NCBI GenBank assembly: GCA_007695285.1
Contig: REEC01000120.1
Coordinates: 62,001 to 126,000 of the forward strand
DNA from: Spirochaetaceae bacterium
GTDB taxonomy: Bacteria > Spirochaetota > Spirochaetia > DSM-27196 > PXBQ01
Reading direction: 5' to 3'
Length of the DNA stretch: 64,000 nucleotides
Position 1 is the stretch's first letter, and each line of letters opens with the position of its first letter. Under the pieces are notes generated by a model. That model was not told the DNA's origin. It worked only from the letters and a program-made list of their open reading frames with translations, and made no database searches. Position numbers and translations under genes: made by a program. Shown piece after piece: positions 18,070 to 62,686 of the stretch.

Positions 18070-18932
18070 TACCGTTCCTCCCCGGTTGTGTTCGGACCTT
18101 TTCTTTGCCCTGACACCGCGGCCGCGTACGCGTCGAGTTCCGCGCGGGTCGCCTCGGACGCCGCGCATGACGGTCTCGGATACCGCGGATTTATCAAGAT
18201 ACCCGATTCCAGACACCGTGTGAACACGGCTGCGTACGCATCGGAAGAGCACACCGGGCAGAGGTACGGACCCTGCCGCCGAAAAACGGTTTCGACAGCG
18301 GGCCACTCGACCTCAATCGGGGCTAACGTCGCAAAAACCGAGAGCGAGTGCTGCAGACCCGCGAGAAACGGCGGCGGCGCGTTGTCGCCGACCGGGAGTT
18401 CAGTTTGCGACACGACGAGTTGCGGTGCGAACGCACCCGGGAACGGAAGAAGCGGCAATGCGATCTCGGCACGAGCCGGTCGCTCGAGAAACGGGCGGAT
18501 AATCCACGCGCACGCAGGGTCGCGTGCTGGGTCGCGTGCTGGGTCGCGTGCTGGGTCGCGTGCTGGGTCGCACGCAGGGTCGCGTGCTGGGTCGCATAGA
18601 TCATCGTACGAGACGGTGTGTCCCCGGATCGTGGAAATCGCGTCGAGAGCGTCCTCCATCGTCGGATACACCGCCGCGTATCGGTACTCAGGGAAGACCC
18701 GCTGTGCGGATCGGAGCACCGAGTCCGTGAAACGGCTCGGATACGAGACCAGGAGCCCTTTCTCAAACGAGTTTTTGATGTGGCGCGTCAACCTCCCGGG
18801 CCGATGACCAAGAATCGCGCGTCCGTCATCGGCGTGAAGATCGAGGTACCGACGACCGGCTTTGTCATAGAGGCACCTGCCGCGCGCGCGCGTGAATCGC
18901 GGAATTATCGCGATCAAACTCTCGTCACTCAC
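18069..18932 (-). CDS. Degenerate class-III aminotransferase-like protein
   Basis: 287 residues. The first 100 match the N-terminus of class III PLP aminotransferases (ARGRCLYDKAGRRYLDLHADDGRAILGHRP, then a helix and strand as in the real enzymes), but the protein is about 130 residues shorter than the family, and no PLP lysine or DE-x-Q motif is visible. In the middle (about 113-140) a run of seven DPAR/DPAC tetrapeptides is encoded by a 12-bp minisatellite. The C-terminal third contains CPVCSSD, a possible metal-binding CxxC. The start is GTG at 18932, overlapping the end of pcrA by 8 bp. Probably non-catalytic; the function is unknown. Confidence 0.7.
   Translation of the reverse strand: MSDESLIAIIPRFTRARGRCLYDKAGRRYLDLHADDGRAILGHRPGRLTRHIKNSFEKGLLVSYPSRFTDSVLRSAQRVFPEYRYAAVYPTMEDALDAISTIRGHTVSYDDLCDPARDPACDPARDPARDPARDPARDPACAWIIRPFLERPARAEIALPLLPFPGAFAPQLVVSQTELPVGDNAPPPFLAGLQHSLSVFATLAPIEVEWPAVETVFRRQGPYLCPVCSSDAYAAVFTRCLESGILINPRYPRPSCAASEATRAELDAYAAAVSGQRKGPNTTGEER
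18512..18595. repeat. 12-bp minisatellite, seven units
   Basis: Seven 12-bp units stand head to tail, two of one type (ACGCAGGGTCGC) and five of a second (GTGCTGGGTCGC). Each encodes four residues, DPAC or DPAR, in the minus-strand gene. The unit length is a multiple of three, so slippage changes length without breaking the frame. Confidence 0.95.
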
Positions 18933-58812: not shown

Positions 58813-59757
58813 ATGCGAAGATTCCCAGTAGTGAAAAGAACAGTACTTCTGATAACGGTGATGATCCTCGGTCGTACGGCACAGGCTGCCGAACTGCCGA
58901 CCGCCGAGTCGCGCCAAATCCGGGGGCCCGCGGTCGAGCTGACGGTGTTCGAGCAGATCCTCGTGCCGGCCTCGAAAGATCAGGACCGCGTTCTCCGTGA
59001 GCGGATCGTTTTCCACTCCGACGGACGTCCGTCGGAGCGATGTCTGTACCACCCCGACGGGCGTCTTCAGTGGCAGAGCGAGTTTTGGTACGATGGCTCG
59101 GGCCGTCTCACGCGGCAAGCTGCATTCAACAGCAAATCTGAGAAGCTCTGGGAGTACGAGTACGAGCGCGACGATCACGGCCGGATCGTGAAAGAGGTGT
59201 CGTTCGCGGGTGACGAGATCGACCAGAAAACCACGTACACGTACGTCAATGACCGCGTGGACACCGAAACGGTGAGCGATGCAAACGGCGACGTTCTGTT
59301 CCGCAAGTCATACTTGTACCTTCGCGACGGGAAAGAAGTTCGGTGGACGATTCGATACCACGACAGTCGCCTGTTGAAACGAGTTACAGAGGTGTACGAC
59401 GACGACGGACGCCTGATATCCGAAAGCCACACCGATGAACTCGACTCGACGTTCGAGAAAGTCTCGTACGAGTACGATTCGGTCGGCCGTCCGATCGTGA
59501 TTGAAGTAACAGACGCATACGGGAACACCCGCGGAAGACGAACGTTCCAGTACGACAGGTTCGGGAGTATCGTGCTCGAGACCGAGACGCGCACGGCGGA
59601 GAACGCCGTTCACGAGCGCAGCCACTCATACGAGTACGACGAGTTCGGCACGTGGACGAAGAGAGAAAGTACCGAGACGGTCCGCCGCGGCGGCACGGTC
59701 ATGACGACTCGACAGGCAATAACGGTCCGGGAGATCGTGTACACGGGAGGATTCTGA
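58813..59757 (+). CDS. Exported YD-repeat-like protein upstream of a two-component pair
   Basis: 314 residues. N-terminal signal peptide (KRTVLLITVMILGRTAQAA, cleaved near residue 25). From about 60 to 290 there are five or six repeats of a 30-40-residue beta unit with Y-x-[YE]-D/DGRL cores (FWYDGSGRLTRQAAF, YERDDHGRIVKEV, VYDDDGRLISESHTD, YEYDSVGRPIVIE, YEYDEFGTWTKR), like RHS/YD repeats of cell-surface proteins but a short, stand-alone set. The start codon choice (ATG 58813 or GTG 58831) is not certain. The stop at 59757 overlaps the regulator start. Probably periplasmic; a ligand sensor for the kinase is a guess. Confidence 0.78.
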   Translation: MRRFPVVKRTVLLITVMILGRTAQAAELPTAESRQIRGPAVELTVFEQILVPASKDQDRVLRERIVFHSDGRPSERCLYHPDGRLQWQSEFWYDGSGRLTRQAAFNSKSEKLWEYEYERDDHGRIVKEVSFAGDEIDQKTTYTYVNDRVDTETVSDANGDVLFRKSYLYLRDGKEVRWTIRYHDSRLLKRVTEVYDDDGRLISESHTDELDSTFEKVSYEYDSVGRPIVIEVTDAYGNTRGRRTFQYDRFGSIVLETETRTAENAVHERSHSYEYDEFGTWTKRESTETVRRGGTVMTTRQAITVREIVYTGGF

Positions 59758-60452
59758 TCACACCGCGAGTATTCATCGTCGAGGACAACGCGCTCATCCG
59801 CGAAGCGGTAACCGAGTATCTTCAGATCGAAGGGTACGAGGTCGTTCAGTTTGAGGCGATGTCCGGTGTCATCGACGCGCTAACGCGTACGCCGCCGGAC
59901 GTGATCATCCTCGACATAATGCTTCCGGACGGAAACGGATTTCATCTCGCGAGGAGAATACGAGAGAAGTCCCACGTTCCGATCGTGTTCTTGACCGCGA
60001 AGGATGCCGAGTCCGACAGGATCACGGGATTTGAGCTCGGCGGCGACGACTACGTCGTGAAGCCTTTTTCCGCTAAGGAGCTTGTTCTTCGCGTGAAGGC
60101 GCTTCTCCGCCGGCTCGGCCCGGAAGCCGACGAAGAGCACGAGAGCACTATGCGCCGCCAACTGAGCGGCTCGATCCTCGAAATCGACCCGGCAACGCAC
60201 CGCGTCCATGTCGACAAACGCGAACTCACGCTTACCGACTTTGAGTGGAGAATCCTCGCGTTTCTCGCGCGAAACCCCGAGCGCGTCGTGTCGCGTAACG
60301 CGATTCTCGGAGAGTGCCTCGAGTACATGCACGACGGATCGGCCCGAACGGTCGACACGCACGTCGCAAATCTGCGCGGAAAGTTAGGCGATCACAACTG
60401 GATAGAGACTGTACGCGGATACGGCTACCGTTTTGTGGGTATTTCGCCGTGA
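59754..60452 (+). CDS. OmpR/PhoB-family response regulator with non-canonical start
   Basis: About 232 residues. Receiver (about 4-118) with EDN in VFIVEDNALIR, phospho-acceptor Asp in VIILDIMLPDGNG, Thr in FLTAKDAESD and Lys in YVVKPFSAKELVLRV; winged helix (about 130-232) with LTLTDFEWRILAFLARNPERVVSRNAILGECL and a final VRGYGYRFVG. No ATG, GTG or TTG precedes the receiver in a usable position. The most plausible start is CTG at 59754, overlapping the previous stop by 4 bp (CTGA), with GGGAGG at 59745-59750; ATT or ATC nearby are alternatives. The kinase follows at once. Confidence 0.88.
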   Translation: MITPRVFIVEDNALIREAVTEYLQIEGYEVVQFEAMSGVIDALTRTPPDVIILDIMLPDGNGFHLARRIREKSHVPIVFLTAKDAESDRITGFELGGDDYVVKPFSAKELVLRVKALLRRLGPEADEEHESTMRRQLSGSILEIDPATHRVHVDKRELTLTDFEWRILAFLARNPERVVSRNAILGECLEYMHDGSARTVDTHVANLRGKLGDHNWIETVRGYGYRFVGISP

Positions 60453-60468
60453 TGGGGACGAAGACGTC

Positions 60469-61827
60469 GTGAAGACACTTTTCTCACGGACATTTCTGTC
60501 TTTTCTCGCGACGTTAGCGGTCGTTGTGATCGTGCTCGGCGCGATGTTTCTGTTCGCCGTTCAGCGCTCGATCGACGACTGGAACACGTACCGCGGCTTC
60601 CGGCTGCAGTCGCTCATCCTTCCGATCATCACGCGCGTCTATCGGCAGGAAGGCGAACTCTCGGAGCCGGCGATCGCCGAAGCGCTCTCGCAGTTCCTCA
60701 CGGCGAACCAGTTCGTGTACATTTTCGACGTCGAACGACGACCGGTATTCCTGTACTCGCGCGGCGAACGGATCACGCCGGCTGAAGGCGAACCGTGGGA
60801 TCCGACTCAGCTCGGCGCCGGATACGGACCGGCCGCAGCGGTGTTCGAGGGCGACGAGGTGATAGCGTATCTCTCGGCCGATACGCTCGGCTTCACGAGC
60901 GACCTCGCGAACCGGCGTTTTCTCGCGACGCTCATCGTCGCGGTGTTCGTCGGAATCCTCGTCTCGCTTGGCGCGGCACTCGGCTTCGCGTTTGTGTTCT
61001 CGAAAAAACTCGCGGCGCAGGCACGCGTTCTCGCCGACGGACTCCATCTGATCACTTCGGGCCGACGCAACGTGACGTTTCCTGCGAGCCCCGCAGCCGA
61101 GCTCGCGGGCATAGCCGACTCGGCAAAAGTGCTTCAGAATCAGCTGCGGACCGAGGAAGGGCTGCGCCGGCAATGGGCCGAAGACATCGCTCACGATCTC
61201 CGGACGCCCGTAACCGCGCTCAAGACGCAGTTCGAGGCGATGATGGAGGGGTATCTGTCGGTCTCGCGCGAGCGCATAGCGACGCTTTTCGACGAGGTCG
61301 CGCGAATAGAACGGCTCGTAAACGACCTGCGCGAACTCAGCAGGATCGAGTCGCCGGAAATGAAGACCGAAATTGAGTGCCTCGCCACCGACGACGTGAT
61401 CAACCAGGTCAATCAGGTATTTCTGATGCGCGCCGAGGAGTCGGGCGTGCCGTTGGTGACCGAGACCGACGCAACGGCGATCTACGCGGATCGGCACCTC
61501 CTGTTGCGCGCGATAACCAATGTCGTGGAGAACGCCTTTCAACACGTCGCGCCGCATGGACGCGTCCATATCCGAATCCATCGTATCGGAGAGAACGTAG
61601 CGGTCGACGTGCTTAACACCGGCTACATCGACCCGGAGACATGTGAACGCGTATTCGACCGGATGTATCGCGGTGAGTCGTCACGCGGCACGCCCGGCTC
61701 AGGCCTCGGCCTCACGATCACGAAGGCGATCATCGATCTTCACGGTGGGAGAATCGGAATTTTTCAGGATTCGGAGATGACGCGCGTGCGAATTACGTTC
61801 CCACACCACGACCGAGCTACGACTTGA
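60469..61827 (+). CDS. Sensor histidine kinase, partner of the regulator upstream
   Basis: 452 residues. Membrane helix 1 (about 10-32), a short periplasmic sensor (about 33-145), helix 2 (about 157-180), a HAMP-like linker, HisKA with phospho-His in EDIAHDLRTPVTALKTQF, and HATPase with NVVENAFQHV and the GSGLGLTITKAIIDLHGGRIG box. BaeS/PhoR-like architecture. The GTG start at 60469 follows GGGGA by about 10 bases. The short sensor domain may need the YD-repeat protein to see its ligand. Confidence 0.92.
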   Translation: MKTLFSRTFLSFLATLAVVVIVLGAMFLFAVQRSIDDWNTYRGFRLQSLILPIITRVYRQEGELSEPAIAEALSQFLTANQFVYIFDVERRPVFLYSRGERITPAEGEPWDPTQLGAGYGPAAAVFEGDEVIAYLSADTLGFTSDLANRRFLATLIVAVFVGILVSLGAALGFAFVFSKKLAAQARVLADGLHLITSGRRNVTFPASPAAELAGIADSAKVLQNQLRTEEGLRRQWAEDIAHDLRTPVTALKTQFEAMMEGYLSVSRERIATLFDEVARIERLVNDLRELSRIESPEMKTEIECLATDDVINQVNQVFLMRAEESGVPLVTETDATAIYADRHLLLRAITNVVENAFQHVAPHGRVHIRIHRIGENVAVDVLNTGYIDPETCERVFDRMYRGESSRGTPGSGLGLTITKAIIDLHGGRIGIFQDSEMTRVRITFPHHDRATT

Positions 61828-61829
61828 TC

Positions 61830-61853
61830 GGGTGCACCGTTTCCGGTGCACCC
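61830..61853 (+). other. Stem-loop after the kinase gene
   Basis: A perfect 9-bp stem GGGTGCACC with its complement and a 6-base loop, 3 bases after the kinase stop. No T-run follows, so termination is probable but not classical; it also lies between convergent genes. Confidence 0.6.
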
Positions 61854-61864
61854 TCGATACCGCC

Positions 61865-62122
61865 TTAGTGCGTGGCGGCTTTGTCGGAGACGGTGAGCGT
61901 GTTCTCAACCGGGCGGTCACCGGCGTGTTGCGACACGATCGCCTCGACCTTTTTCTTCTCGGCCTCGTGCGCCACCTTGCCGGAAATCTTCACGACCTCT
62001 TTTTTCCGAAAAAGAGGTCCCTCTTTCTGCACGACGATCGAGATCCGCGTGGGATCGGAGATAGTCGGGTCGTCGTTCAAGACCTTCCTGATGCGATCCT
62101 GGAGCTCTTCATTGTCAGCCAT
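61865..62122 (-). CDS. Small BON-domain protein
   Basis: 85 residues. Pattern of a BON domain (about 8-72): DRIRKVLNDDPTISDPTRISIVVQKEGPLF, then VVKISGKVAHEAEKKKVEAIVSQHAG, VENTLTV. BON domains occur in osmotic-shock and envelope-stability proteins (OsmY, OsmB context) and bind phospholipids. Without a signal peptide it is probably cytoplasmic, which is unusual. The start is fixed by GGAGGT upstream. Its promoter region carries the 11-bp periodic repeats at 62157-62196. Confidence 0.8.
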   Translation of the reverse strand: MADNEELQDRIRKVLNDDPTISDPTRISIVVQKEGPLFRKKEVVKISGKVAHEAEKKKVEAIVSQHAGDRPVENTLTVSDKAATH

Positions 62123-62142: not shown

Positions 62143-62148
62143 AGTTTA
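62143..62148 (-). promoter_or_regulatory. Possible -10 box of the BON gene
   Basis: On the minus strand TAAACT stands 8 bases downstream of the last heptamer of the repeat array. There is no good -35; as in PhoB-type promoters, the array would take its place. The predicted start near 62136 is followed by GGAGG and the ATG at 62122. Confidence 0.45.
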
Positions 62149-62156
62149 GACCCGAC

Positions 62157-62196
62157 GTGTTCACGGTGTGTCGGCGATGTGTCAAGAGAGTGTCAA
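62157..62196. promoter_or_regulatory. Four 7-bp direct repeats at an 11-bp period, candidate OmpR/PhoB-type operator
   Basis: Heptamers GTGTTCA (62157-62163), GTGTCGG (62168-62174), GTGTCAA (62179-62185) and GTGTCAA (62190-62196) are each separated by exactly 4 bases. On the minus strand these read TTGACAC, TTGACAC, CCGACAC, TGAACAC towards the BON gene. The 7+4 arrangement is that of Pho boxes and OmpR-family sites. Confidence 0.65.
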
Positions 62197-62249
62197 TTTG
62201 CGCGGGGACTGCCCGATCAGAATCGTGCCCGGCCTTGCGCTTTCGGCCC

Positions 62250-62278
62250 TTGAGCGGTACTCTCAAAGGAAATACTTT
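62250..62278 (+). promoter_or_regulatory. Sigma70-like promoter of the VOC gene
   Basis: TTGAGC and TACTTT are separated by 17 bp; the predicted start near 62285 gives a leader of only about 12 bases with AAGGTGG. Confidence 0.5.
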
Positions 62279-62296
62279 GCACAGAAGGTGGTAGTC

Positions 62297-62686
62297 ATGA
62301 AGATTGAACACGTTGCGTACATGGTCGAGGATCCACCGACGGTCGCCGCATGGTATGTCGAGAACCTCGGGTTCACGATCCAGCGAGCCGGTGATGCGCC
62401 GATTTTTGCGCACTTCCTCGCCGACGACACCGGCGCCGTCATGGTCGAGATCTACAACAACTCCAAATGCACGGTGCCCGAGTACAACACGCAGGACCCA
62501 CTCCTGCTCCATCTCGCGCTGATCTCGGACGACATCGACGCGGACGTCGCGCGGCTCACGAAAGCCGGGGCGCAGATAGCCGACGAGCCGATCACCACCC
62601 CTGCGGGTGACCGTCTCTGCATGCTGCGCGATCCGTGGGGTTTTGCTCTACAGCTCGTCAACCGCGCCTCACCGATGGTGTCGTAA
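62297..62686 (+). CDS. VOC-family (glyoxalase/dioxygenase-fold) protein
   Basis: 129 residues. The fold is seen as two beta-alpha-beta-beta-beta units: MKIEHVAYMVEDPPTVAAWYVENLGF (with the first metal His in EHVAYMV), the Glu of MVEIYNN, LLHLALISDDIDADVARL with a second His, and LCMLRDPWGFALQLV. Metal ligands H, E, H and possibly a second acidic residue suggest an active metal site, but the reaction is unknown (lyase, isomerase, dioxygenase or resistance). AGGTGG precedes the ATG. The pgmB gene follows after 4 bases. Confidence 0.85.
   Translation: MKIEHVAYMVEDPPTVAAWYVENLGFTIQRAGDAPIFAHFLADDTGAVMVEIYNNSKCTVPEYNTQDPLLLHLALISDDIDADVARLTKAGAQIADEPITTPAGDRLCMLRDPWGFALQLVNRASPMVS

Follow-up and report, generated by a model that had tools for sequence, protein, structure and literature searches.

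The window analyzed here, a 64-kb stretch of a Spirochaetaceae genome (G000), carries a two-component system next to a small gene encoding a BON-domain protein. On the plus strand, a YD/RHS-repeat protein that is probably exported (58813..59757; PF05593) directly precedes an OmpR/PhoB-family response regulator (59754..60452; PF00072 and PF00486) and its cognate, co-conserved histidine kinase (60469..61827; HisKA and HATPase_c). The YD/RHS-repeat protein is conserved across the order as a third component of this module, and is a possible accessory sensor or effector. The conserved start of the regulator (59740-59770) lacks ATG, GTG and TTG codons; a CTG at 59754, preceded by GGGAGG, overlaps the stop codon of the preceding gene, which suggests translational coupling. 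The BON gene (61865..62122, minus strand; PF04972, 31.8 bits) is the putative regulated gene and encodes 85 amino acids with no evident signal peptide. Between the convergent kinase and BON genes lies a terminator-like inverted repeat, GGGTGCACCGTTTCCGGTGCACCC (61831-61854), one arm of which differs in a sister species. On the other side of BON, a VOC gene begins divergently at 62297, and its upstream region (62210-62296) contains a promoter-like TTGCGC-17-TACTCT that is kept in the sister species while the spacer changes.

The intergenic region upstream of BON holds four heptamers at an exact 11-bp step, namely GTGTTCA (62157-62163), GTGTCGG (62168-62174), GTGTCAA (62179-62185) and GTGTCAA (62190-62196), which were found, like the -10-like TAAACT, exactly where an earlier note had reported them. 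On the BON coding strand (minus strand, 62197 to 62143) the sequence reads ATTGACACTCT CTTGACACATC GCCGACACACC GTGAACACGTC GGGTCTAAACT. The first four blocks are 11-bp units and the fifth contains the -10 element TAAACT (62143..62148, minus strand; AGTTTA on the forward strand) at a fixed spacing, just 5' of the BON ribosome-binding site. The whole (62143..62197) was delimited as a candidate operator-promoter on the basis of sequence, orthologue comparison and a profile. The note had framed the repeat as TTGACAC, with the -10 element 8 bases away. In the better frame, derived from 50 arrays of other genomes and placed one base upstream, the half-site is CTTGACA followed by a spacer nAAT. The four minus-strand half-sites then become ATTGACA (62191..62197) and CTTGACA (62180..62186), both strong and identical in the sister species, followed by GCCGACA (62169..62175) and GTGAACA (62158..62164), both degenerate as judged from orthologues and profile. 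The third half-site is weak in most arrays and the fourth ends 9 bp from the -10 element.

TTGACA is also the -35 consensus, and by composition the array is only suggestive, being mildly unlikely by chance: it is the sole period-11, 4x7 array of such quality (24/28) in the 64 kb, but an equally good one turns up in 15% of dinucleotide-shuffled versions of the window. The copies might therefore be no more than common sigma-70 -35 hexamers, or a repeat that arose by chance. However, the distances between half-site ends and the -10 element are 9, 20, 31 and 42 bp and never 16-18 bp, the spacing at which a -35/-10 promoter would show TTGACA and at which no -35 hexamer is present in front of BON. 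The four-unit architecture is also met again in front of orthologues and of genes from the same families. We regard this reading as very improbable, and the conservation pattern described below already contradicts it.

That the array is real and widely conserved follows from comparison with the sister species and other genomes, not from composition, and as sequence evidence this conservation is decisive. In the sister species (Spirochaetaceae bacterium T3Sed10_257, G001), which has the same gene order and 90% identity, 18/18 positions of the outer pair (half-sites 1 and 2) are identical, compared with 9/16 and 13/19 in the flanks. Half-sites 3 and 4 match at 13/19 positions, with ACA kept at the 11-bp step, and the -10 element reads TACACT. 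Outside the genus, the tandem repeat was present at all ten strong BON orthologues. The TTGACAC-N4-TTGACAC box of the earlier note stood up well here, with scores of 10-13 out of 14 at these ten orthologues, nine of them significant against shuffles (p<0.05). Overall, 12 genomes of the order, including members of other families, kept the array in front of BON. The -10 offset was alike in most of them, the exceptions being L023/G044 (shifted) and L011/G042 (one unit nearer). Six loci with weaker similarity to BON (L012, L015, L016, L024, L034 and L035) had no clear array and were left out of the orthologue counts. The absence of the array from BON orthologues of sister species, which the note had named as grounds for rejecting the operator, was thus not observed, and its interpretation is supported.

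The genome scan for the exact consensus, as proposed in the earlier note, retrieved 12 matches within two mismatches compared with 10 for a control, i.e., no enrichment, because the other sites of this genome are degenerate and only the window site is near-perfect, so that a profile was needed. An alignment spanning many BON sequences varied too much to be used in scanning the named genomes, and a smaller one recovered only six named MAGs. An architecture pattern retrieved 27 exact matches in 46 genomes of the order and, within one mismatch, a total clearly above that of the reversed pattern. The resulting profile (50 arrays) has the consensus CTTGACRnAAT CTTGACAnnnn cTgGAcnnnnn cTtGAnAnnnn nnTnGTAnnnT. 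Since most arrays were collected with the pattern, conservation of its specified positions is circular. Several positions that the search left unspecified were nevertheless informative (spacer A80 A96 T74, u3.4 G78, u4.2 T70, u4.4 G82 and u4.5 A84), and therefore constitute independent evidence for all four units. One array, at ~1518 of G017:C270 (L175; counted on the minus strand), is extended to five CTTTACA/CTTGACA/CTGGACA units and lies upstream of a transglutaminase-like gene.

A sequence-only model was built from 49 of the 50 arrays, without the two genomes of the window's genus (G000 and G001). With this model, the window array was the top-ranking match of its own genome (E 0.001), followed by C250:5111 (upstream of a DUF4168 gene), C189:15048 (a fasciclin-like exported protein truncated at the contig end) and C73:12532 (E 0.7; a 43-aa CEP lipoprotein). 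These E-values are modest and the calibration of the model is rough; each of the four matches at E<=1 lies in front of a family that is also found behind the array in other genomes. At E<=5e-4, matches were found in 29/46 genomes of the order versus 1/251 in the rest of the class, and in that single genome the array again lies beside a related regulator. The genomes are mostly MAGs (G000 is 95% complete with 6% contamination), which makes absences soft.

Among 69 distinct arrays, 64 lie in front of BON, DUF4168, small-lipoprotein, fasciclin-like or transglutaminase-like genes, the fasciclin assignment being just under the Pfam cut-off and the transglutaminase one weak. The remaining five precede other apparently exported proteins; export was called from visible signal peptides, not from a predictor. 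Among the genes downstream of the 69 arrays, none for phosphate uptake was seen. Judging from the profile matches, the regulator of G000 probably also drives the DUF4168 protein, the fasciclin-like exported protein and the small CEP-type lipoprotein. Together with BON, these mostly exported products would make up a small regulon, probably an envelope-stress or envelope-maintenance response. Our literature search returned no paper on such a regulon in spirochaetes and none linking DUF4168 with a two-component system, DUF4168 being unmentioned in the papers searched. Placing the BON, DUF4168, fasciclin-like and very small lipoprotein families in one putative regulon provides a functional lead for DUF4168.

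The earlier note had singled out the neighbouring OmpR-type regulator as the first candidate for binding, and its genomic distribution favours this choice. Orthologues of the regulator occur in ~34 of the 46 genomes of the order and travel with the array even in genomes where BON does not. The array was present in 32/34 genomes with the regulator versus 2/12 without a recovered one (Fisher p 1e-6, treating genomes as independent), and 21 of the 34 had an array match no more than 3.5 kb away from the regulator orthologue, regulator type having been checked for the loci examined within this count. A weak array near the G042:C284 regulator belongs to a locus of the Lys-type paralogue described below and was left out of the count. 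At L057, L058 and L060, the array sits between BON and a divergent orthologue of the window regulator (54-58% identical). In other genomes BON is located elsewhere, and the array is found at the regulator operon, from which it points outward; the gene ahead of it encodes either a DUF4168 protein or a lipoprotein of 41-46 aa with CEP at the start of its mature part. In G000 the array lies 1.7 kb from the regulator gene; none was found at the regulator-kinase operon itself, so autoregulation is not seen in this genome. Likewise, no array adjacent to the regulator was found in the f3 family or in G007, G013, G017, G019 and G027, all of which carry the regulator.

The same genomes encode a second OmpR-type regulator, whose recognition helix reads RT[VI]DTH[VI]KN instead of RTVDTH[VILM][ASG]N, i.e., with Lys where regulators of the window type have Ala, Ser or Gly (RTVDTHVANLR in the window). 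Four-unit arrays are found at its loci too, in several cases immediately before the regulator gene, and they read CTTCACA instead of CTTGACA. In G000 this paralogue is encoded at C42:4287-5009 (L119 4293-5015), and a CTTCAC-type array (3450-3504 of L119) lies upstream of the exported-protein gene preceding it. Outside the order, at L216 (G222:C326), an array is located between a Lys-type regulator and a divergent exported-protein gene resembling DUF2202/ferritin-like proteins by appearance. With base 4 of the half-site ignored in scoring, C was found in 36/36 outer units at Lys-type loci, while Ala/Ser/Gly-type loci had G in 24, T in 11, A in 4 and C in 1 (n=40). These sites are phylogenetically related, and a Fisher value for them does not represent independent trials.

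As a close relative whose own loci bear arrays of this kind, the Lys-type paralogue could itself be the physiological binder of the window array, alone or together with the Ala-type regulator, and three genomes (G018, G034 and G042) do have arrays without a recovered Ala-type regulator. Their assemblies, however, are 76-89% complete and the operon of G042 is cut by a contig end, while base 4 in the window reads G, G, G and A, in contrast to the C of the paralogue loci. We consider binding by the paralogue very unlikely, and base 4 distinguishes its putative operator from that of the adjacent Ala-type regulator. By our own alignment, the variable residue aligns with PhoB Arg200 and, in Mycobacterium tuberculosis PhoP, with the residue that precedes Tyr220, which reads the motif in the crystal (PMC4832192). 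Tentatively, and with the odds somewhat against it, the two paralogous systems may be kept apart mainly by Ala/Ser/Gly versus Lys reading G/T/A versus C in every half-site. The two types form separate clades, and the correlation may reflect one evolutionary event. If true, two envelope regulons with otherwise identical four-unit operators would be separated by a minimal specificity switch of natural origin. The two paralogues lend themselves to testing how regulators of the OmpR family come by insulated specificity.

On direct repeats with 11-nt units, proteins of the OmpR/PhoB family bind in a head-to-tail arrangement (PMC4415409, PMC4832192). Each Pho box comprises two such units, with seven conserved and four less conserved bases, and its consensus varies between species (PMC4415409); PhoB-activated promoters require strict spacing between box and core promoter, with boxes just upstream of the -10 element (PMC10294691). 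As expected of an OmpR/PhoB-family tandem operator, the array in front of BON has direct repeats of ~7 bp at an 11-bp period, a fixed place directly upstream of a -10 element lacking a -35, and a linked regulator with receiver and winged-helix (Trans_reg_C) domains; the 11-nt repeat units, their place just before the -10 element and the regulator family are shared with the Escherichia coli PhoB-PhoR system. On the other hand, its half-site, CTTGACA in the profile, differs from the CTGTCAT of E. coli, as the earlier note had anticipated. The regulator also scores below the PhoB cut-offs (189.1 bits versus 296.2 for TIGR02154; 155.6 versus 471 for PRK10161), and the targets seen behind the arrays, exported proteins and BON, include no obvious phosphate gene. 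The system would be PhoB-like in mechanism but is not classed as a Pho system. PhoP of M. tuberculosis binds as a tandem dimer to 7-bp motifs with a strict 4-bp spacer, and as trimers or tetramers to longer repeats (PMC4832192). The window shares this motif length and spacer; the PhoP motif TCACAGC is closer to the CTTCACA of the spirochaete paralogue than to CTTGACA. The Cpx, Bae and Cse envelope-stress systems likewise combine an OmpR-type regulator and a membrane kinase with mostly exported targets, and CreB, CseB and BaeR are among the best sequence relatives of the window regulator, as is BaeR among PDB entries. It nonetheless falls under every curated cut-off (bits/cut-off: CpxR 142/341, BaeR 172/380, CseB 191/350), its target families differ, and a YD-repeat protein lies beside it. 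These are NCBIfam cut-offs, and the regulator also stayed below the one for CreB.

Taking together the array, its spacing and conservation, the target families, the regulator linkage and the recognition-helix correlation, all read from sequence, we consider it very likely that the array serves as operator for the adjacent two-component system, whose regulator (59754-60452) would bind the four half-sites and activate a sigma-70 promoter lacking a -35 element. When phosphorylated, the regulator would assemble as head-to-tail protomers on the four CTTGACA-type half-sites. Strong outer and weak inner half-sites suggest hierarchical loading, in which the outer pair is probably occupied first and the inner pair next to the -10 element then cooperatively. 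The bound regulator would replace the -35 element and recruit RNA polymerase, so that BON is transcribed leftward; an inner half-site ending 9 bp before the -10 element and the lack of a -35 at 16-18 bp fit activation. The array does lie in a divergent intergenic region in which the VOC side has a conserved promoter-like sequence of its own, and a bound regulator might instead repress, or the operator might serve VOC. Yet the -10 element and ribosome-binding site are on the BON-type side of the array even where the opposite neighbour differs, and BON lacks a -35, as expected of an activated promoter. We find repression or service to VOC distinctly unlikely, and retain activation of BON by the adjacent regulator. 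Regulator, operator, promoter geometry and target genes can thus be proposed for one two-component system of a lineage in which the literature searched describes no regulon of that kind. The array itself is found across a whole order of soda-lake spirochaetes that has been little studied. Elsewhere in the window, a 12-bp tandem repeat of 6.6 copies with the unit GGGTCGCGTGCT was observed at 18517-18595.
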